DNA from: a virus
DNA length: 24,715 nt
Reading direction: 5' to 3' (one strand)
IMG/VR virus record: IMGVR_UViG_3300033146_000597
Location: 1 to 24,715 of that record
The notes under the pieces are model-generated. The model saw only the letters and a program-made list of their open reading frames with translations, did not search any database and was not told the origin of the DNA. Numbering within the stretch: position 1 is the stretch's first letter; the number at the start of each line of letters is the position of its first letter. A program made the translations under genes and the position numbers. Shown piece by piece: positions 5,595-24,123 of this stretch.

Positions 5595-6971
5595 CTATAA
5601 ATCTACACCTGCACTAAAAATGCCATCAGCTGCTAAACTTGAACCTCCATTACTGACTGTATTCAGTCCAGTAGTTATAACACCACTACCTACCATAAAA
5701 GCATTCAATACATTCAAGAAGCTATCACCATCAACAGTATCAGCTCCAGTTCCTGTTATGATATTAGTACCATAAGCAGTTCCAGCTGTACTATCTTCTA
5801 TATCTTGATAGTTACCTCTTTCAGTAAATATTGTTATGTTCTTAGAAGAACCATTACTTTCTCCTAAGTTAATCTTCTCATTACTATAAAAATCAATAGT
5901 AATACCTGAATAACCATATCCATTCTTTGTCTCTTTAACATACTGAGCAAATTCTCTATGAATACCTGCATCCCTAACATTACCTTGATAGTAAAATTCT
6001 TCAATAGATACAGACTCATGTCTACCATTACCTAAATCTATTTCAAACCCAGTGCCACTATCTGTAAAAGTAGTAACACCAAAATTGTCTCTTTGAATAT
6101 GAGTGAATGTCTTAACATAATCACCAAATCCAACATTAAATTTATTAACTTTACCTTCAATCACTATACCATAATCATCAGTAGTAGTATCGGCAATAAC
6201 TCCTATTGCAATACCGGACTGAGTCATATTTTGATATTCTTTATCAAGTATTACTATATTATTAACAGTATCTATCGAAACAGCTTCATAAATACCATTA
6301 AGTTCATCTCTATAAGGAGTTCCAGTCTTACCAGGAATTGAGTATACAGCACCTACAACTGGAGTTCCAGTAGTATAAGATATAGCTTTAGAACCTTCAA
6401 TTACTTCACAACCACCTAATCCAGTACCTGGAGTTGCATCTGATATAACATTAACTTTTATATTAAAGTTAGTTATATAATCTATATTTGCAGCATATTG
6501 ATTAGCTAATGCTTTAGCAACCATATATTGAGTAGTACCTGATAAAGGACTCTTATATACTAATTTATGAAAGTCAAAATCATTTTGTATGGCTGACCCA
6601 GTATTATCATACTCTATAATTAAAGAATAAGAATTATCGTCTACAAGATCAATTGACCCAGAAGTACCATTATACCCTAATGCAACTCTTTGTTCTTTTG
6701 ATTGTCTAAACTTAAATCCTTTAAAAGAATTAACTTTATTCTTTTGAATTAAGTCAGTCATATAAACTCCACCACCTGTAATTCCTTGCATTAATTTAAT
6801 ACCAGAAGCTGCTTTAGCTTTAGCTGCTGTATTTACTATATTACCTCTTTCATCTAATACTATAATTTCACCTGCTCCTAAATTAATAGCTAAATTAGCA
6901 GGAGTCAACCCTACTGTTCTAGTACAATTGGAAGCTACAAGTACCTTTTTTACTTCTTTTTTATTATGCAT
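5595..6971 (-). CDS. Probable abundant virion structural protein (tail or head-decoration candidate)
   Basis: A 458-residue Gly/Thr/Asn/Ile-rich beta-type protein without signal peptide or membrane segment. The N-terminus is basic (MHNKKEVKKVLVASN) and is followed by long stretches of alternating beta strands and a Gly/Ser-rich C-terminus. It has no recognised enzymatic motif. It is the last gene before a strong terminator and follows the head and connector genes. That placement and the lack of charged linkers suggest a major virion component made in quantity, for example a tail-tube-like, collar or decoration protein. Which of these cannot be decided from the sequence. It ends with TAG, one of several amber stops here, so TAG is unlikely to be recoded in this phage. 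Confidence 0.75.
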   Translation of the reverse strand: MHNKKEVKKVLVASNCTRTVGLTPANLAINLGAGEIIVLDERGNIVNTAAKAKAASGIKLMQGITGGGVYMTDLIQKNKVNSFKGFKFRQSKEQRVALGYNGTSGSIDLVDDNSYSLIIEYDNTGSAIQNDFDFHKLVYKSPLSGTTQYMVAKALANQYAANIDYITNFNIKVNVISDATPGTGLGGCEVIEGSKAISYTTGTPVVGAVYSIPGKTGTPYRDELNGIYEAVSIDTVNNIVILDKEYQNMTQSGIAIGVIADTTTDDYGIVIEGKVNKFNVGFGDYVKTFTHIQRDNFGVTTFTDSGTGFEIDLGNGRHESVSIEEFYYQGNVRDAGIHREFAQYVKETKNGYGYSGITIDFYSNEKINLGESNGSSKNITIFTERGNYQDIEDSTAGTAYGTNIITGTGADTVDGDSFLNVLNAFMVGSGVITTGLNTVSNGGSSLAADGIFSAGVDL

Positions 6972-9044: not shown

Positions 9045-10499
9045 CTATTGTACGTTTAATCTATAAATCATTGTGTTGTTAGGGTTCTTAATTACAGCCA
9101 TAAATTGACTCATTCTTGACTCTACCCAACCATCTTTCATTGTGGCTACATCTTTAACTACTTTATCACTCATTGGAGTGTAAGGGTCTCTCATACCTTT
9201 AAGTACACCGGTAATATCTTGTGCAGACTTAACATAATTAAGCTTGATGTTATCAGTTCCGCCAGTTTGGCCTAAGTCCATAATGTGATACTCATAACTT
9301 CTAACATAACCTTTAGCAGGGTGTCTCACAGGAGTTCTGTATTCATCATCTAACATAGGCTCCAATCTAAAGTCAATATAGAATCCAGCAGGGTGCATAT
9401 AACGTCTAAAGCTATTACCTAAACCTAAATTCTCTCTATCACCAAAGATATCCTTATTATCAACTCTTTCCCATCCTTGAGCTTTCTCTGAGATCGCGTT
9501 ATGAGCTTGTAATAGTCCATAAGAACCAGTACTAACTACATAATGTGTCTTATCTGTCTGGTTCTTACCAACTCTAAGCCTCATTATGTGGTCTGAAAAC
9601 TCATCAATATCAAAGTCATTATAATAGTTTAGATTAGCTCTTTCCATTTGTTGTACTAAACCAGGACCTTGTATTACATTCTCTCCTGAGTGTCTATCGA
9701 AATCGTCATAACCACCATTCTTGTTCATGTTATCTCTACCCCATAAGATAGTCTTATTCTTCAATTCTTTAAAGTGTAAGTCATTAACCCATGTATCATA
9801 ATGTTCCCATGTAGTTAATACATTGTTATTGTCATCTTTCCATGAAAATGCAACAGGTCTGTTAGCCATATCACCACCAGCTTCTCTTTCAGTTCTAGTA
9901 GAACTCCAGTTAAACGTGATAGCATAAGGACTAGTATAACTAGCTTTAGCACCTTTCATAGAACGTGTCATAGGTACAGAAGCACCATCTCTACTCCATA
10001 AAGTACCACTAGCTAATTCACTTGCAGGTATAAAGCTTTCAATAGGACCAAATACCTCACATGTATAAGAATAATTAGTACCCTCTTGTACAGGTCCTTC
10101 TATAATCTTAACTCTGTATCTGTCATTCATACCCACAATCTCATGCACTTCACTAAATAATGGGTCAGTAAATACCATATTAAACCTAGACTTATTGATA
10201 CCAACTCTATTCATATCATCAGCTCTATAAGAAACAAGTTTAGTATTACCTTTAACTTCACCATATATTCTGTAATTAATAGGGTCATCTGTTTCCATTA
10301 CCCCTACATTACCTCCTAATACAGTCTTTAAATAAGAATCTAAAGCCATACCTGTTGTATTTACTGAGTGTAAATAAGTCATAGTATCATCTCCCCATAC
10401 AGGGTCAATAGCTCTTATCTTTAATAAATTGTTTTTGTCTGTTAGACCATTCCACATTGGTTCTGGTCTAAACAAAATTCCGTTTGCATTAAAACTCAT
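9045..10499 (-). CDS. Probable major capsid protein
   Basis: A 484-residue protein placed directly after a scaffold-like gene and two genes after the portal, where tailed phages carry the major capsid protein. The composition is balanced, rich in Asn, Asp, Tyr and Trp, with alternating strands and helices and no signal peptide. It has a long N-terminal arm (MSFNANGILFRPEPMWNGL) and an extended segment near residues 200-260 that could be an E-loop or insertion. No sequence motif proves an HK97 fold, so the call rests on context, length and composition. The leader has an A-rich start region and no Shine-Dalgarno. It is transcribed with the scaffold gene 4 nt upstream. Confidence 0.7.
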   Translation of the reverse strand: MSFNANGILFRPEPMWNGLTDKNNLLKIRAIDPVWGDDTMTYLHSVNTTGMALDSYLKTVLGGNVGVMETDDPINYRIYGEVKGNTKLVSYRADDMNRVGINKSRFNMVFTDPLFSEVHEIVGMNDRYRVKIIEGPVQEGTNYSYTCEVFGPIESFIPASELASGTLWSRDGASVPMTRSMKGAKASYTSPYAITFNWSSTRTEREAGGDMANRPVAFSWKDDNNNVLTTWEHYDTWVNDLHFKELKNKTILWGRDNMNKNGGYDDFDRHSGENVIQGPGLVQQMERANLNYYNDFDIDEFSDHIMRLRVGKNQTDKTHYVVSTGSYGLLQAHNAISEKAQGWERVDNKDIFGDRENLGLGNSFRRYMHPAGFYIDFRLEPMLDDEYRTPVRHPAKGYVRSYEYHIMDLGQTGGTDNIKLNYVKSAQDITGVLKGMRDPYTPMSDKVVKDVATMKDGWVESRMSQFMAVIKNPNNTMIYRLNVQ

Positions 10500-11634: not shown

Positions 11635-11663
11635 TTTAAAAACCATAAAAAACCGTTTTTAAA
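11635..11663 (-). terminator. Hairpin at the end of the portal gene (weak terminator or attenuator)
   Basis: TTTAAAAAC at 11635-11643 and GTTTTTAAA at 11655-11663 form a perfect 9-bp stem that includes the portal stop codon. The sequence after it on the minus strand is T-rich but interrupted, so termination would be partial. It lies just before the promoter for the scaffold gene and marks an operon boundary. Confidence 0.45.
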
Positions 11664-14070
11664 GCTTTTTTTGAGCAGGTTTCGATGAATTTTGAGACTT
11701 TTGTCGAGCGACAATTTCTTTTTCTTTTAACCTCAATTCTTCTTCTTTCAATCTAATATCCTCTTCATCTTTAAACTGCTTCATATTCAGTTCTCTATTC
11801 TTAACCTCATTTGACATCTTTTCTTTTTCAATTTCTATATTATCTTTAATACCATTAGAGTTGTCATCTCTAAAGTTACTTCTTTCATCTGTATAATCTT
11901 TAGCATCCAGTTCAATAGTCTTAATGTCTAATCTACTTTTAGCCCTTATAGATTCTAATTGTAACTCAAGTTCACCTTTAAGTTTTATTTTATCCATCTC
12001 TAATTTAGTAGTAGCCTCTATCTTAGCAACATCGGCTTCATTTTGACTCTTAGCTGCATCCTTAGCTTTCCTTTCTTTCTCATCTTCAAGTTTCTGTGCT
12101 TCAACTATCAACTCAAAACTATTATTAGTTTTAAATATCTTTATAAGCTCAGAATAAGTAATCTGTCCATTAGGTAATCCCTGTACTACTGCATTCTCTA
12201 ATATACCTACAAGCTTCTTAAACTTCCTTGTATTAACAGGAAATAAATCTATCTGTGCATTACTAAAGTCCTCATTAGTGCCTTCAAATACTGAGTAAGA
12301 GTAATCATCTAATATAGCTTGAAATGCTACACCACTCTTAAGTAATTGTCTACCTGTATTAAGTAACAAGTAATTCAAATCTAACATTATCTGCTCATAT
12401 CTATCGAACCAATACTCTGTAATATGCGAACTACTTACTCTACTCCTCTCAACATTACCAACTAACTCTCTCGTCGAAATAGAACCTAATCTTTGTGGTG
12501 TTATACCCGTAATCTTAGAAATCTGTTCCTCAGCCTTAGCTATCATATCTAGTATATGCACAATACTACTACCAACTTCCATATCTAATGGTTTAGAAGA
12601 CGTATTATACATACCAGCCAATTTACTTTGTGCTATACCTTTATTACCAGCTTTAAAACTATCTTTAACTCTTACACCATGTTGTTTCATATACCTCATA
12701 ACTTTAGGTACATCCCAACCATCAGGTATATTATGTAAATCTAATTCTATTATCTTACCAAAGTTCTTACTTAATATATCTTCAGCTCTAGCAAACAACA
12801 AGTTAATTAAATACACATAAGGAGATATTAAAGATACCATCGAACGTGATTTGTTATTTACAACATTAAAGTAGCCTCCTACATATCCAGAGTAACTCTC
12901 AAATGGATTATCTGGAGATATTACTCTAGGTTCTTTAACACCTTCACCAACAATAAGTTCACCACCAATTAAAGTGGCTTTATACCATTCAGCAACATAT
13001 CTAACAGTAAGCTCCTCACCTTCATCCTTATTTACAGTATAGTATTCACTTACATAATCATACTTAACTTCAGCATCCTCATCATAATACTTTCTTTTAT
13101 ATATCTTTCTAAATCCTTTCCAAGAGACATCTACAACTCTTATATTACCTTCCGAATCAGTTAAGCTAGTATTACCTACACTTTTACCTACCTTAAGAAA
13201 TTGATATGCATTGTCTCCTTCAAAGGCTTGGTGATATAGATTATATTCTGCCGCAGAAAGCTTACCACTTCCTGTTGCAGATGTTAATGTATTTTGTAAT
13301 ATATCACTAAATACAGATTTAGTTTTTATATACTCACCATATTCATCTATAATTTTACCTCTAGGTAAATATCTAACTTCAGCTACTATCTCAGCATCCT
13401 TTACATTATTACTGTTACCTGACCTTACTGTATAAGTATTCAAAGGATTACATCTTCTTACAAAAATATTGTCATTTCTAACCCCCACATAAAATATAGC
13501 TTGCCCTAATATAAGAGCTTCCCTCATACCTTCAGTTTTCAGTCTAGGAATATCATTAGTCTTCTTTATAATATTAAGTAACTTATTAGCACTTTTCTCT
13601 AAAGTTGACATAAACCTATCTGGCTGTAACGCTCTCATACTTTCTCTTAATTTCTCTTTATCTTTTATCTTACCACTAAGTGCATCTTGTAGTAACTCGA
13701 CAGTCTTCTGTCTTCTTTCTTCTGATTTAATAGACAGAGAATTTACATCAGTAACTGCTACACCGTATTCTTCATTTCGTTCTAAATACTCACCATGTAA
13801 TAAGTCAATCTTATCTCTTATTACTGCAAAGTTCTTAAAACTAGGAGTATAATTAGCATTAAATACTTTCATAGTATCAAAATGCTTCTTAAGTTCCTTA
13901 ACGTCTACAATACCATCATATAAATTGAGATTAGTTTGTTTTTCTTCATTTGTTAAAGAAATATTATTAACCTCACTTAATGCCATTGATACAGCTGCTA
14001 ATGTACAGTCTTTAAACCATTTCTTAGTCTTATCCTTAGATGAGACTTTCTGAATAGGTAATTTTTCCAT
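11659..14070 (-). CDS. Portal protein
   Basis: An 803-residue protein between TerL and the scaffold gene. The N-terminal 150 residues are charged and helical. The central part has the helix-strand pattern and 'arm' segments expected of portals (NPFESYSGYVGGYFNVVNNKSRSMVSL; ITGITPQRLGSIS). From about residue 655 to the end there is a long coiled coil, very rich in Lys and Glu, broken by DDNSNGIKDNIEIE at 735-748, which looks like a D-x-N-x-N-G-x-x-D calcium-binding loop. Portals of crAss-like and related Bacteroidota phages are of this size and have such tails, to my knowledge. It forms the dodecameric DNA gate at the capsid vertex. It follows TerL by 18 nt. The call rests on size, order and the absence of other candidates. 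Confidence 0.75.
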   Translation of the reverse strand: MEKLPIQKVSSKDKTKKWFKDCTLAAVSMALSEVNNISLTNEEKQTNLNLYDGIVDVKELKKHFDTMKVFNANYTPSFKNFAVIRDKIDLLHGEYLERNEEYGVAVTDVNSLSIKSEERRQKTVELLQDALSGKIKDKEKLRESMRALQPDRFMSTLEKSANKLLNIIKKTNDIPRLKTEGMREALILGQAIFYVGVRNDNIFVRRCNPLNTYTVRSGNSNNVKDAEIVAEVRYLPRGKIIDEYGEYIKTKSVFSDILQNTLTSATGSGKLSAAEYNLYHQAFEGDNAYQFLKVGKSVGNTSLTDSEGNIRVVDVSWKGFRKIYKRKYYDEDAEVKYDYVSEYYTVNKDEGEELTVRYVAEWYKATLIGGELIVGEGVKEPRVISPDNPFESYSGYVGGYFNVVNNKSRSMVSLISPYVYLINLLFARAEDILSKNFGKIIELDLHNIPDGWDVPKVMRYMKQHGVRVKDSFKAGNKGIAQSKLAGMYNTSSKPLDMEVGSSIVHILDMIAKAEEQISKITGITPQRLGSISTRELVGNVERSRVSSSHITEYWFDRYEQIMLDLNYLLLNTGRQLLKSGVAFQAILDDYSYSVFEGTNEDFSNAQIDLFPVNTRKFKKLVGILENAVVQGLPNGQITYSELIKIFKTNNSFELIVEAQKLEDEKERKAKDAAKSQNEADVAKIEATTKLEMDKIKLKGELELQLESIRAKSRLDIKTIELDAKDYTDERSNFRDDNSNGIKDNIEIEKEKMSNEVKNRELNMKQFKDEEDIRLKEEELRLKEKEIVARQKSQNSSKPAQKKL

Positions 14071-14088: not shown

Positions 14089-16182
14089 TTATACCCTCAA
14101 AATCAAGTCATCAATGTTTAATTTAGGGCTACCCTCACCTATAGAGTCATCCCAAAACGAATCTTTAGCTGGGTCATACACTTCATCTTCTTTATAATTC
14201 TCCATACCTACTATTCCTTTCTTGGCTTCATATAAAATCATTAACATACCTAAAGCACTTACTCTATCGTAGTTATTACTAGAATCCCAAGCACTCAACT
14301 CTTGTAGTAATGCAACAGAGTTTATAACATTAACATATTGAACTAACTCATCCTTAAATATCTTATCTAATAGCCATATCTTAATTAATCCTCTAGCATA
14401 CTTATTTATATTAGTAGTTCCAGGAGTACCATACTCTCTATCATTAGATACTTTAGACATTTTCTTTATTATTTCAGGGGCAGGTTCTAACAATCCAAGC
14501 TTACCTTTCTTCTCAAAGTACCATTTCAACCCTAGTAAGTTATTTTCAAAGTTAACAGTTGCATTATAATACATAGTTAAATACAATACTTGTTCATAAT
14601 ACTCAGCCGCTGTCTTAGGTCTACCTGTATATTCGGCAACAAGCATCCCTGTAACAACATTCATTACAAAGCAACTACCTAAACTCATAGTTTCACTACT
14701 ATCCTGGTCATAAGGGTCAACTCCTACTATATATAATCCTTGAGGTACTTCACCGTCAACCTTAGCAGGTACATCCCATATCTCTATAGCACCCTCATTA
14801 TTACCACCTTTTGCATGTGGAAAATTCCTAACTAATGGAGCAGTTAAATCATCTTCAAATACTATAGCTTTATTCCTTATCTTCATAAGACCAACTCTAC
14901 TAAAGTCAACCTCATTAGATAATGTAAGCAAATCAGCTAACCTATCATCTAATTTACGTACCGGAAAATCATTACCATCTACACGTAATAAAGCATCCTC
15001 AGGTCTAAGAGGTCTCTCTGACCTCCTTTGTAAGATAGCTGTAGCATCAGTACCTAACACTTCCATATTCTCTAGCTTATTGAACTCTACCTCGTAAGCT
15101 CCAAGTACCTCAGTGTTACCATCCTTATCCATGAATGCATTAATATTAGAATAGGAAGGAGCAAAGAATCCAGTCTTCTGATTTTCTCTTCTCTTCTTAC
15201 TCCATATATTATCTATAGAATGTATATTATATGCAGCTGGCTTAAAGAAAAATTCATTTAATGTCTTATATGATACCATCTTAGAACCACCAGTACCAAA
15301 TGCAACCATTAATCCATATGTTACACCATCCTGCTCAACACTCTCACGTGCTATTTGCCATGCTTTAAGTAATCCAGGGAACTCACCAGCCTCCTCATAC
15401 AATATAAGCTTACCTCTAACCCCCCTAGCCTTATCTGGTTTATTATTAAGTGACTTACCTATAATCTCACTTTTAAAGCCAACTTCTATCTTATTAGAGT
15501 AATGAGAAGCTCTCAAATGTAATAACGTATTATGTCTTTGGGAGTGCTTAAAAAAACCTGTATGTTGATTTATAAAGTTACCTATATCTTGTGCTTTATT
15601 CAATATACCATCCTTAACTAAATAAGTCTCCTCAGCTGCAAATACAAAGCTACTACTCTTAGGAATCAAATGAAAATTCCTCCTTAGCATACTAGCTCCC
15701 TTAAATGAATACCCTTTACCTCTACTCTTCAATACACTAGCATGCTTACCTAACTTCTCAGCTTCTTCTAAATAGTGAAAGTAATAATAGTCATAGTCCC
15801 ATATATCAGGAAACCATTCTTCTCTAGTACCTTTAACTTGCATACCCATTCTTACCTTTTCTTTATCTTCCTCTTTGTACTTTACTTTCATTATTCTACT
15901 AAAGTTAAGATAAAAGTAATAATACCCAGGTATCCAATCACTACCTATACTGTAACCTTCTATACTTCTCCTAGTCTGCTCTACCCAATACTTATAATAA
16001 GGACTATCAGGATAAGGACTATATGGGTGTTTAGTGTAGTACCCATACTCATCAAAATGTGCAGCTTCCTCTCTAAACTTATCTACATTAGCAAGCTTAT
16101 GCCCAAAATTACACCCAACTTCTACATCAGCTCCTACATCTCTATTGTATGGACTAACTAAACTCAAGTTCTTTTCTAACAT
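14089..16182 (-). CDS. terL: Terminase large subunit (packaging ATPase and nuclease)
   Basis: A 697-residue motor that packs DNA into the procapsid through the portal and cuts concatemers. The ATPase domain shows a Walker A-like LKSRGKGYS at 151-159, a Walker B LILYEE at 259-264, and a coupling motif AFGTGGS at 294-300. The nuclease domain shows acidic residues in VGVDPYDQD (D489), NFENN (E546) and NYDRVSALGM (D639), as in RNase H-fold terminase nucleases. Length is normal for Bacteroidota phages, and the SRGKGYS form of Walker A is seen in crAss-like terminases as far as I know. The first ATG overlaps the preceding gene by 29 nt. The next Met is far inside, so this start is likely. Confidence 0.95.
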   Translation of the reverse strand: MLEKNLSLVSPYNRDVGADVEVGCNFGHKLANVDKFREEAAHFDEYGYYTKHPYSPYPDSPYYKYWVEQTRRSIEGYSIGSDWIPGYYYFYLNFSRIMKVKYKEEDKEKVRMGMQVKGTREEWFPDIWDYDYYYFHYLEEAEKLGKHASVLKSRGKGYSFKGASMLRRNFHLIPKSSSFVFAAEETYLVKDGILNKAQDIGNFINQHTGFFKHSQRHNTLLHLRASHYSNKIEVGFKSEIIGKSLNNKPDKARGVRGKLILYEEAGEFPGLLKAWQIARESVEQDGVTYGLMVAFGTGGSKMVSYKTLNEFFFKPAAYNIHSIDNIWSKKRRENQKTGFFAPSYSNINAFMDKDGNTEVLGAYEVEFNKLENMEVLGTDATAILQRRSERPLRPEDALLRVDGNDFPVRKLDDRLADLLTLSNEVDFSRVGLMKIRNKAIVFEDDLTAPLVRNFPHAKGGNNEGAIEIWDVPAKVDGEVPQGLYIVGVDPYDQDSSETMSLGSCFVMNVVTGMLVAEYTGRPKTAAEYYEQVLYLTMYYNATVNFENNLLGLKWYFEKKGKLGLLEPAPEIIKKMSKVSNDREYGTPGTTNINKYARGLIKIWLLDKIFKDELVQYVNVINSVALLQELSAWDSSNNYDRVSALGMLMILYEAKKGIVGMENYKEDEVYDPAKDSFWDDSIGEGSPKLNIDDLILRV

Positions 16183-16708
16183 CCCCTCTTAATTTATTCT
16201 CACTTAAATTACTTTCTTCATCTACCATATCTATAGCCCCTTTCAAACTCTTCAGTAATTCAGTTTGCTTACTTAATATATCACTATACTGTTTAGGATT
16301 ATGTATCAGTTTGCCATTCAAGTCTCTCTCATCTAAATCTACCGCAGTAAGGAAATTACGTAATTTGCCTATATTGTTTATTATATCCCTAAGAAACTCC
16401 TTAGTATGAGACTTATCTAATGTAATCATAGAGTTGACTGCATTATTTATTACTTTATCATCTCTATAATCAACAGAATAACCAAACACTAAATCAGCTA
16501 CTACTTTAACTCTTTCATTCTTATGATATTCCCTAAAACTGTTATCAGGGTTCATACTAGTTATAAAATACACAAATGATATTTCTTTTATAGCCATCTC
16601 TTTATTCTCAGACTCATCTCTATCCCAAATTTGAAAGAAAGCATCTACTCCTAGTAGCTTATCATCAAATTCAATCTTACCTTTACTATTTACTTTAATT
16701 AATCTCAT
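16154..16708 (-). CDS. Unknown protein upstream of TerL (small terminase position)
   Basis: A 184-residue helical, charged protein. Features seen: an N-terminal beta section (MRLIKVNSKGKIEFDDKLL), an acidic helical core and a basic C-terminus ending NKLRGDVRKELEFS. No helix-turn-helix is obvious and no family is recognised. It lies immediately upstream of TerL, overlaps it by 29 nt, and its start overlaps the GIY-YIG gene by 4 nt. The position is where a small terminase subunit often sits, but the sequence does not show one. Its stop is TAG. Confidence 0.75.
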   Translation of the reverse strand: MRLIKVNSKGKIEFDDKLLGVDAFFQIWDRDESENKEMAIKEISFVYFITSMNPDNSFREYHKNERVKVVADLVFGYSVDYRDDKVINNAVNSMITLDKSHTKEFLRDIINNIGKLRNFLTAVDLDERDLNGKLIHNPKQYSDILSKQTELLKSLKGAIDMVDEESNLSENKLRGDVRKELEFS

Positions 16709-17160
16709 TTAAACCTTGTTTTATAGTATTTAGAATTATTTTTATTTAACATCTTAAATCCATTACTCCTCAGATACGTTATCCACTCTTGTTCATACAT
16801 GTAAACATCTGAAGTTTGTACTTTATTTAACTCAACTATAGTTAATTTACCGTTACTATCTATTATCTGTCCCATCCATAAATATTTAGAGTTCCAATCT
16901 TTCTTACCTAATCCCATAGCCTTAATTTGGTTAAGGTGGTTCTTAAATCTCTTCTCTATAGTCTGGGAAGTCTTACCTACATACAAAGTAGTGGGGGCAT
17001 CATTACCAGCAACAGCTCTAAATATTAAATATATGGTTTGCTTACTCTCTAAGTATTTAAAATTCTTTAACCTGTTCATATCTTTTTGATATACATTATT
17101 AGTTATAAGATTAATTTTACTTTTTATAAGAGGGTAAGCATTACCTAACTCTTTTTCCAT
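16705..17160 (-). CDS. GIY-YIG family endonuclease
   Basis: A 151-residue single-domain nuclease. The GIY equivalent is IYLI at 43-46, the YIG equivalent is LYVGKT at 59-64, then R71 and H75 (RFKNHL), the metal-binding glutamate in YEQEW (about E125) and N139/N141 in LNKNN. These are all the catalytic positions of the family, so it should be active. GIY-YIG enzymes cut DNA and are often free-standing homing endonucleases in phages. It sits inside the packaging operon with overlaps of 16 nt and 4 nt to its neighbours. The next gene upstream carries NUMOD-like repeats, which are often fused to such nucleases. A homing or mobile origin is likely; a packaging or repair role cannot be excluded. 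Confidence 0.88.
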   Translation of the reverse strand: MEKELGNAYPLIKSKINLITNNVYQKDMNRLKNFKYLESKQTIYLIFRAVAGNDAPTTLYVGKTSQTIEKRFKNHLNQIKAMGLGKKDWNSKYLWMGQIIDSNGKLTIVELNKVQTSDVYMYEQEWITYLRSNGFKMLNKNNSKYYKTRFK

Positions 17161-20584: not shown

Positions 20585-21037
20585 ATGATAAAAGCGGAAA
20601 TAAGAGACGAGTTAACCATAGCTGGGGAACTTGTTAAGCCTGCGAGAGAGACGCAGGCAAATTCTAACGGAAAGATACAGTTAGAATTAAAGATTAAGAC
20701 AGACCATGGTTATAGGACTGTCTACATCCCGAAAGGGTTCGCTACTAACCAGCTAGTCACTGGGAATAATGTAGTGATAGAATTCAGCCAACCTCTAGCT
20801 GGGTTGACTGGATACATAAATGAAGGAGAAGAAGTCCTTCATGGTATAGATCCTACAACAGGTAAGTTGTGGGAAGGCTTAATTAAAGGGCAAGAGTTAA
20901 GCCCTAAGTTAGAGAATCTGTTCAGTTATTCTCAAAAGGAGAATGAACTGAATAAGAAGTTAACGGCTCTAGAATCTCTGTCAGAGGAGAAATTAGAGTA
21001 TTTGACTAAATATAATACAGTTGCACAATTAGTGTAA
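20585..21037 (+). CDS. 150-aa plus-strand protein of unknown function
   Basis: The first rightward gene. Residues 1-85 are beta-rich (ELTIAGELVKPARE; IQLELKIKT; YRTVYIPKGF; NNVVIEFSQPL), compatible with an OB-like or other small barrel. Residues 105-150 are helical and coiled-coil-like (NELNKKLTALESLSEEKLEYL). No family is recognised, and a DNA- or RNA-binding role is only a possibility. A stop at 20564-20566 excludes an upstream in-frame start. The perfect AGGAGGT is 20 nt before the ATG, too far for normal use. A 12-bp hairpin covers the stop codon. The gene is followed by a long structured region with no coding. Confidence 0.75.
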   Translation: MIKAEIRDELTIAGELVKPARETQANSNGKIQLELKIKTDHGYRTVYIPKGFATNQLVTGNNVVIEFSQPLAGLTGYINEGEEVLHGIDPTTGKLWEGLIKGQELSPKLENLFSYSQKENELNKKLTALESLSEEKLEYLTKYNTVAQLV

Positions 21038-21043
21038 CTGTAT
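21015..21043 (+). other. 12-bp hairpin spanning the stop codon
   Basis: ATACAGTTGCAC (21015-21026) pairs with GTGTAACTGTAT (21032-21043), including one G-T wobble, around the loop AATTA. The TAA stop at 21035-21037 lies within the 3' arm. No T-run follows, so this is not a standard terminator; it may cap or protect the message end or begin the downstream RNA. Confidence 0.6.
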
Positions 21044-21054
21044 TGTAATGTATA

Positions 21055-21805
21055 GTACACATCAATAGTCAGCAAGACTAGTTCTATTGGTGTGTACGAA
21101 TTCTTATACGTTTTAGACGTAGCCTTCAATGGCATATAAGAACACAACATGTGTGATGAGCATAGGAACAAATCATTGACAAGTCTATTACACAAGAGCT
21201 AATTTGAAGTGTAATTAGTTAACTAACTCGTATGTGGGAGTTAGTTATTAAAACTGAGAAGAAGTCCAAGTAGAATTGGATTAGGTTTCACATAGCATTA
21301 TAGTGAATTGGTACAAATCGAATAATTGATGGTAGGACAAGTAACCCTACAACAGGTCGAATAGTACATAAAGTATCTATATGCAGTGCAGAACAGTAGC
21401 TAACTCTCAATACCATGAGAGAACTACCCTAAGAGATTGGGAATTACATGAGTTAAATTACATGTGGTATTAATATTATAGTCTGATTTGCTATCAATCT
21501 ATTACAGACTTTAAACTCGTAAAGCATACCTAGTGTATGTGTAAGATTGGATTACCATTAATCTTAATGGTTATTGAACTCGTTATAGGGAGGGATATAT
21601 AAAAACACAAAGAAGTCCTTAGGGATGAGTTGTCTATAATGCTCACGATACACACCATGCAGAGAGATAACTTCAAAGATGGTTTAAATGTGTATAACCT
21701 TAAAGTAATTTAGGGAGGTACCGAAAGCAGGTGATTACCATATAGTGGTAGGTTTGATGCTCCTAAGCATTAATTTAGTAGCATCCTAATAAGTGATTGG
21801 TTAGG
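21055..21805 (+). ncRNA. Candidate large structured noncoding RNA
   Basis: No coding frame is credible, yet hairpins follow one another. Main helices: 21055-21068 with 21084-21097 (14 bp); 21101-21106 with 21137-21142, enclosing TACGT/ACGTA and GCC/GGC as a three-way junction; 21187-21193 with 21209-21215; AACTAACTC at 21221-21229 with 21238-21246 (9 bp); 21263-21269 with 21276-21282; 21404-21409 with 21416-21421; 21480-21485 with 21505-21510; 21554-21560 with 21565-21571; 21648-21658 with 21679-21695; 21757-21761 with 21766-21770. It ends 13 nt before a tRNA-like element. The form recalls GOLLD or ROOL RNAs of phages, but class membership is not shown. Confidence 0.6.
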
Positions 21806-21817
21806 GTGTTGCTTTAT

Positions 21818-21892
21818 CTCTCAATAAATGCTAATAGATTAATAGTCTATTAGTATATATAGGTAATGTCAGTTCGATTCTGACTTGAGAGA
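21818..21892 (+). ncRNA. tRNA-like element lacking a D arm
   Basis: The acceptor stem is perfect (CTCTCAA 21818-21824 with TTGAGAG 21885-21891) and the T arm is standard (GTCAG-TTCGATT-CTGAC, 21868-21884). Total length is 75 nt, as in a tRNA. The middle instead forms one 8-bp arm, CTAATAGA with TCTATTAG around TTAATAG (21831-21853). There is no GG-containing D loop, so the anticodon is unclear (AAT if the 7-nt loop is used). It may be a degenerate tRNA or an RNase P-recognised processing element. Only 6 nt separate it from the fMet tRNA. Confidence 0.6.
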
Positions 21893-21898
21893 CTAGAT

Positions 21899-21971
21899 TG
21901 CAGGATGGAGCAGTTGGTGGCTCGTTGGGCTCATAACCCAGAGGTCGTAGGTTCGAATCCTACTCCTGCTA
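21899..21971 (+). tRNA. Initiator tRNA-fMet, anticodon CAT
   Basis: A complete cloverleaf of 73 nt. D stem GAGC/GCTC, anticodon stem TTGGG/CCCAG, loop CTCATAA with anticodon CAT at 34-36, T arm GTAGG-TTCGAAT-CCTAC, discriminator A. Three initiator marks are present: positions 1 and 72 (T-T) cannot pair, the D stem has A11-T24 (purine 11), and the anticodon stem has three consecutive G-C pairs. No CCA is encoded, so it is added after transcription. It follows a tRNA-like element by 6 nt and probably shares its transcript. Phages that carry tRNAs more often carry elongators. Confidence 0.95.
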
Positions 21972-22021
21972 CAATACCAATATGCTGTTACTAGTCATTT
22001 AGATTAGTGATGGTGGTTGGT

Positions 22022-22380
22022 TAATAGTCCTAACTAGGACTAGCCCTTGATTATGAATTAAGGTGAGATACATTTGAGTATTTTGTGGGGCTTTAAAGAT
22101 TACAAAGACTGAAATGTTAAAGGGGTTTAGGATTGATTGGGGGAATGTGAGGAGTGATTGGGAAGTTGTGGGTGAAGGGGGCGAAGTGCCCTTATTAGTA
22201 TCCACCTAACGAAACACCAACCCACCCACCCCCACAACCTCCCCCCAATCCTAACAATACCACCAAATCCCACCTCTCAAAATAATCCCCTAAATAATAA
22301 CAAATCAAATGGGCATACAGAGAGGAGGGAGAAAAGCTATAACATAGATAGTAGAGCAATCTGTATCGAAAGTAATAGCT
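22022..22380 (+). ncRNA. Candidate structured noncoding RNA with G-rich/C-rich long hairpin
   Basis: Downstream of the fMet tRNA. Helices: TAGTCCT-AACT-AGGACTA (22025-22042). A long interrupted stem: TTAGGATTG at 22127-22135 with CAATCCTAA at 22246-22254, then GGGGG with CCCCC, and GTTGTGGGTG at 22165-22174 with CACCCCCACAAC at 22227-22238. TCCC-A-CCTCTC at 22268-22278 with GAGAGG-A-GGGA at 22320-22330. AGCTAT/ATAGCT at 22335-22340 with 22375-22380. The strong G-then-C strand bias is explained by the pairing. No coding frame is credible. Confidence 0.55.
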
Positions 22381-22853
22381 ATAAAAATAAAATTAAGTAG
22401 TCCATCTTTGTGCTGGGGTTCAAACCTAAGTATTTTATTGGACATAAATAATTATAAAGTTGATTGAGGAGGAATTGCAAGAAACTGGAGTAAGTATTAG
22501 ATATATAACTATACTAATTCACATTCCATACATATTGTAATTCTTCCTTACAACACTAACAACTATAATAATATCTAAAATACCATCCTAACTTCCCAAG
22601 GGTTAGCTACATTATGTAGAGTATTGAGGGGATATTAATATCTAAATATCAGAATAACAGAGACAACCCTATATTAATATAGGAATCTTTAAAGCTATAT
22701 ATTTGTTTAGGTATTTATTACACTCAACTTCAATTCAGGAGTTAGAGTTAAAACATCTATCATGAAAAGTCCTATGACCATTGGTCAATCATAGGCATAA
22801 ACAGTTTGTACCAGCTCTTATGATACTGAGTAATGTATCTACAAATAATTTAA
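22381..22853 (+). other. Noncoding stretch with palindromes and a candidate promoter
   Basis: No gene is seen. It holds two palindromes sharing the core ATATTAATAT (GATATTAATATC at 22631-22642 and CCTATATTAATATAGG at 22668-22683), a TAnnTTTG box (TATATTTG, 22698-22705) and a hairpin CCTATGA/TCATAGG (22771-22795). The layout could be an operator and promoter for the transcript that covers the start-less frame downstream. Confidence 0.5.
22668..22711 (+). promoter_or_regulatory. Putative operator palindrome and Bacteroidota-type promoter
   Basis: The 16-bp perfect palindrome CCTATATTAATATAGG (22668-22683) lies in the minus-33 area of TATATTTG (22698-22705), an exact TAnnTTTG match with a start expected near 22711. 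A related 12-bp palindrome lies 25 nt upstream. A dimeric regulator could use both. No TTG minus-33 element is visible. Confidence 0.4.
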
Positions 22854-23914: not shown

Positions 23915-24123
23915 GAGCTATAACACTTCGATAATTTACAAACTCAATTATTAAAATTACTAATTTTAATAGTTGTTTGACTATTTATTTTGATGGTACG
24001 TAACGTCAATCATATAATAGTAAGTAAAAATATAAAATTTAGTACATTTTATATATGCGATATAATGGTATCTTATTTGAAAAAATAATAAGTAGTAAGT
24101 TCGATTCTTACATAGCTCCACCA
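23915..24123 (+). ncRNA. tRNA/tmRNA-like domain with a ~135-nt structured insert
   Basis: GAGCTAT (23915-23921) is the exact complement of ATAGCTC (24112-24118), which follows a standard T arm GTAAG-TTCGATT-CTTAC (24095-24111) and is followed by CACCA. Just before the T arm are a D-arm-like hairpin GATA-TAATGG-TATC (24059-24072) and an anticodon-like arm TTATT/AATAA with a 9-nt loop TGAAAAAAT (24073-24091). Between the 5' acceptor strand and the D-like arm lie a 14-bp hairpin (23945-23975), a compound hairpin (23980-24021) and ATATAAAAT/ATTTTATAT (24030-24054). This is a closed multibranch RNA, either tmRNA-like or a tRNA carrying an insertion after acceptor position 7. The end AGCTCCACCA is as in tmRNA and tRNA-Ala. 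Confidence 0.5.

Follow-up and report, generated by a model that had tools for sequence, protein, structure and literature searches.

The window, by which we mean the whole analysed stretch of 24,715 bases (an IMG/VR record), carries on its minus strand genes for the terminase large subunit (14089-16182; phrog_6681, 2.2e-110), the portal protein (11659-14070; phrog_6547, 1.8e-88) and the major head protein (9045-10499; phrog_11589, 3.5e-56). Because these genes lie on the same record as the tRNA that is our main subject, the tRNA sits in a phage genome and not in host DNA. Identity of the terminase to that of Crassvirales such as cr60_1 is about 40%, to those of the IMG/VR contigs L002 and L003 65-67%, and to that of L006 49%. 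Since it matches Crassvirales, we placed the window with the crAss-like phages; it is a fragment of a standard-code member of this group, a virus infecting bacteria of the gut type. A GIY-YIG domain protein (16705-17160, minus strand), likely a homing endonuclease, separates the terminase-side genes from a 299-aa unknown protein. For a 150-aa ORF and an exonuclease gene of the window, no relatives were found in IMG/VR.

In the genes of the window TAA, TAG and TGA all serve as stops, the start is nearly always ATG, and the leaders are AT-rich. Opening TAG or TGA brought no gain in frame length in the window, which therefore uses the standard code. We also considered an alternative code restricted to the noncoding right part of the window, and rejected it when opening TAG gave no convincing genes there. 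A code-switch tRNA, as in recoded crAss-like phages, was likewise rejected: neither TAG nor TGA is sense here, and ARAGORN called no suppressor tRNA in the window.

The tRNA gene occupies positions 21899-21971 on the plus strand, has the anticodon CAT and ends in A73 followed by CAA, so that CCA is not encoded. ARAGORN reported it as tRNA-Met(cat) at 21899-21972, its sole tRNA call in the window, and found nothing in any of 60 dinucleotide-shuffled versions of the full sequence; the Rfam tRNA model scored 21899-21971 at 62.2 bits (E 1.7e-11). The original prediction had named it an initiator tRNA from three marks, and reading of the stems located each of them. The 1:72 position is T.T (U1xU72), with no Watson-Crick pair. 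The D stem, GAGC/GCTC, includes A11:T24, the purine 11:pyrimidine 24 state that cellular initiators among the matches listed share. The anticodon stem, TTGGG/CCCAG, has the three G-C pairs GGG:CCC at 29-31:39-41. A fourth mark, beyond those three, is the anticodon loop CTCATAA; the T loop is TTCGAAT. ARAGORN, Rfam and the four marks thus support the identification: the locus is an intact and probably functional initiator tRNA, carried by a phage and originating in Bacteroidota. Its fold energy by itself is unexceptional (z = -1.0 against shuffles), and no promoter or terminator signal is conspicuous.

For comparison, we collected cellular initiators by a pattern derived from the tRNA core, in which the core was fixed, 1:72, 4:69, 7:66 and 27:43 were free, and position 21 was A or G. 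This gave a sample of 127 cellular initiators among the matches listed, mostly from Bacteroidota. The 1:72 position in these 127 listed sequences is C.U in 61, U.U in 31 and C.A in 26, with others making up the remainder; U.U is therefore an ordinary cellular state. CCA is encoded in only 15 of the 127 among the matches listed, and in lacking it the window tRNA resembles most Bacteroidota initiators there. The closest cellular initiator among the matches listed, from a Bacteroidales (L117), is identical at 66 of 73 bases and likewise has U1xU72; the two have in common the D stem, the core of the anticodon arm and the absence of an encoded CCA. Their seven differences fall at 4:69 and 7:66 (both sides of each) and at 43, 21 and 59, where the window tRNA has G43, G21 and A59. 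Four of the seven are thus taken by two compensated acceptor pairs, namely A:T in place of G:C at 4:69, where all 127 cellular initiators among the matches listed have G:C, and A:T at 7:66, which is G:C in L117. The wobble pair at 27:43 (U.G) is kept despite the change at 43. These compensated acceptor changes argue for selection on the fold. Position 21 is truly unusual: it is A in 127 of 127 cellular initiators among the matches listed, and G21 could make the tRNA core weaker. An exact search of IMG/VR for the G21 variant returned no match. From this likeness, the tRNA gene was presumably taken from a Bacteroidota cell at some time, L117 not necessarily being the donor.

A scan for T arms picked out three and no more in the window; they share the plus strand and the same region, and one of them is that of the initiator. 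The same scan found none in L003 or L006. The second belongs to a tRNA-like element just upstream of the initiator (21818-21892), supported by the Rfam tRNA model, the T-arm scan and its fold. This element has a complete 7/7 acceptor stem (CTCTCAA/TTGAGAG) and a normal T arm, but no D arm: a single long hairpin replaces the D and anticodon arms, its 7-base loop closed by 8 perfect pairs, or by 13 when the fold is left unconstrained. It scores 31.8 bits with Rfam, above the gathering threshold of 29, is not called by ARAGORN, folds with z = -4.7, and has no exact match in IMG/VR. The third T arm (GTAAG-TTCGATT-CTTAC, around 24095-24111) belongs to a possible long tRNA-like RNA or decayed tRNA at 23915-24119, seen by the T-arm scan and the fold. 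D-arm-like and Phe-like anticodon segments precede it at about 24060-24092, and it has no adjacent 5' acceptor strand. The 3' acceptor strand, ATAGCTC after the T arm, has a single perfect partner (7/7), GAGCTAT at about 23915-23921, which sits 185 bases 5' of the T loop; the same 7-mer partner arises in 65 of 3000 shuffles. The resulting RNA of about 206 nt folds with the acceptor as closing stem (z = -4.1). Each of the two elements could be a stable RNA or a decayed tRNA, the longer one tRNA-Phe-like if decayed; neither had a homologue for comparison.

Among crAss-like records, an initiator-type tRNA match was found in 7 of 24. No tRNA is present in L003 and L006, the closest relatives that span the matching region, and the initiator is therefore dispensable in the group. 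A CTCATAA hairpin at a neighbouring place in L003 was discarded as a candidate, not being a tRNA by Rfam and occurring near chance frequency. The crAss-like initiators of cr60_1, L007, L021, L043, L048 and L049 share with the window tRNA the CTCATAA loop and a weak or unpaired 1:72, but have A29:U41 or weaker anticodon stems, and their genomes are TAG-recoded whereas the window uses the standard code. A link between the initiator and TAG recoding was tried and rejected: 7 of 7 carriers are recoded against 12 of 15 non-carriers (Fisher p = 0.52), and the window carries the initiator yet is not recoded. Because recoding is general in the crAss-like set, no such association can be claimed. A CTA (suppressor-type) tRNA adjoins the initiator-type tRNA in L007, L021, L053 and L245 (cr60_1), and the same adjacency occurs in an unrelated mycobacteriophage, Mycobacterium phage Phox (L236).

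More broadly, blastn with the window tRNA (E <= 1e-3) matched 288 of 50,697 GenBank phage records, including phages of Mycobacterium, Erwinia, Caulobacter, Vibrio, Streptomyces, Gordonia, Campylobacter and Prevotella (Lak), among others. Ten of the matched tRNAs were inspected, and most combine an unpaired 1:72 with CTCATAA; the Erwinia phage examples have less typical TTCATTA loops, one of them being annotated as tRNA-fMet. A tRNA-fMet has also been named in Erwinia jumbo phages (PMC7760394) and in huge wastewater phages (PMC10747093). A further annotated case is phage T5 (AY543070), with an 'initiator tRNA fMet', tRNAfM (CAU). The T5 and window tRNAs are both phage-encoded, with U1xU72 and a CTCATAA loop, and each has tRNA-like company: tRNAfM is situated among tRNA-like stable RNAs of unknown function, which the elements at 21818-21892 and 23915-24119 recall in outline. 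They differ in that T5 has over 20 tRNAs and the window one ARAGORN-called tRNA, that the T5 gene encodes CCA, and that GGG:CCC in the anticodon stem is found only in the window tRNA. Phage-borne initiators are thus already known and not rare, and the unusualness implied by the original prediction is weak in view of T5, the 288 matched records and the seven crAss-like carriers. The window is a new example; we found no earlier mention of an initiator tRNA in its phage lineage. It extends phage-borne initiators to a standard-code crAss-like lineage, and shows that the class, mostly annotated just as tRNA-Met, is spread across many phage groups.

What might such a gene do? Codon compensation cannot simply explain a phage initiator, and a tractable phage that carries one would for this reason offer a direct test of the purpose of phage tRNAs. 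We consider it likely that the gene is a functional initiator of Bacteroidota origin that increases or maintains the fMet-tRNA pool in the infected cell. This reading has its basis in the initiator sequence identity, the intact cloverleaf, the compensatory changes and the placement in a phage, from which we infer expression, charging, formylation and a benefit to the phage. The phage transcript would be trimmed in the infected cell, receive CCA from the host CCA-adding enzyme, and be charged by host MetRS and then formylated. Host IF2 would bring the phage fMet-tRNA into use at the P site, and this use would raise or sustain the pool for late phage synthesis; support of initiation is plausible. 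We counted in favour of a functional gene its complete cloverleaf, set against the missing cloverleaf parts of the two tRNA-like neighbours, and the retention of initiator-type genes across diverse phages. Counted against it were the absence from L003 and L006, G21, the lack of a promoter or terminator signal, and the z of -1.0.

Some of the same observations would suit a captured host tRNA carried in a decaying array with no present benefit: the close relatives have no tRNA, two neighbours are damaged or odd, and G21 is atypical. Nevertheless, compensated acceptor changes and retention of all initiator marks are not expected in a neutral relic, and we regard this reading as unlikely. To the same degree unlikely is a role in counter-defence, in which the phage initiator would replace host tRNA-fMet cut by an induced VapC-type nuclease, by dosage or by resistance. 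Such a role has been proposed for phage tRNAs, including evasion of anticodon nucleases through changes in the loop (PMC10264068), and VapC toxins that cleave initiator tRNA exist according to work cited in the literature. However, phages are reported to shun, in general, a tRNA-fMet gene where this tRNA is the VapC target (PMC10264068), and the CTCATAA loop and adjacent GGG:CCC are the same as in cellular initiators, without the signature of resistance by loop mutation. Because the loop is unchanged relative to Bacteroidota initiators, escape of this kind is not supported, nor is the earlier suggestion that the tRNA survives tRNA-fMet cleavage through resistance; resupply of cut host tRNA-fMet by dosage is possible. 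By analogy with T5, the initiator and stable RNAs with an acceptor and T arm but no cloverleaf could jointly redirect host translation initiation late in infection, which we think very improbable. That the gene is an elongator tRNA-Met or tRNA-Ile(CAU) mistaken for an initiator is hardly credible and already contradicted by the sequence, for although the anticodon is shared and other crAss-like phages (L062 and others) have CAT tRNAs with G1:C72 and C11:G24, here the unpaired 1:72, A:T at 11:24, GGG:CCC and CTCATAA all occur together, and identity to elongator-type CAT tRNAs is 44-45/73 against 66/73 to an initiator.

Upstream of the tRNA-like elements, positions 21038-21817 (plus strand) hold no credible ORF and no Rfam match and are hairpin-rich in parts. 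A giant RNA of the GOLLD/ROOL type was considered here and rejected: relaxing the thresholds still gave no Rfam match, fold scores were raised only in parts of 20600-22500, and perfect hairpins of at least 8 bp are few. Several 150-base windows in 20600-22500 and 24400-24650 fold well below shuffles (z to -7.5), on both strands and also within the 150-aa ORF; no Rfam family matched either region. In the crAss-like relative L006, a 140-aa ORF has in its leader a DUF805b RNA motif detected by Rfam (44 bits; 5983-6017, minus strand).
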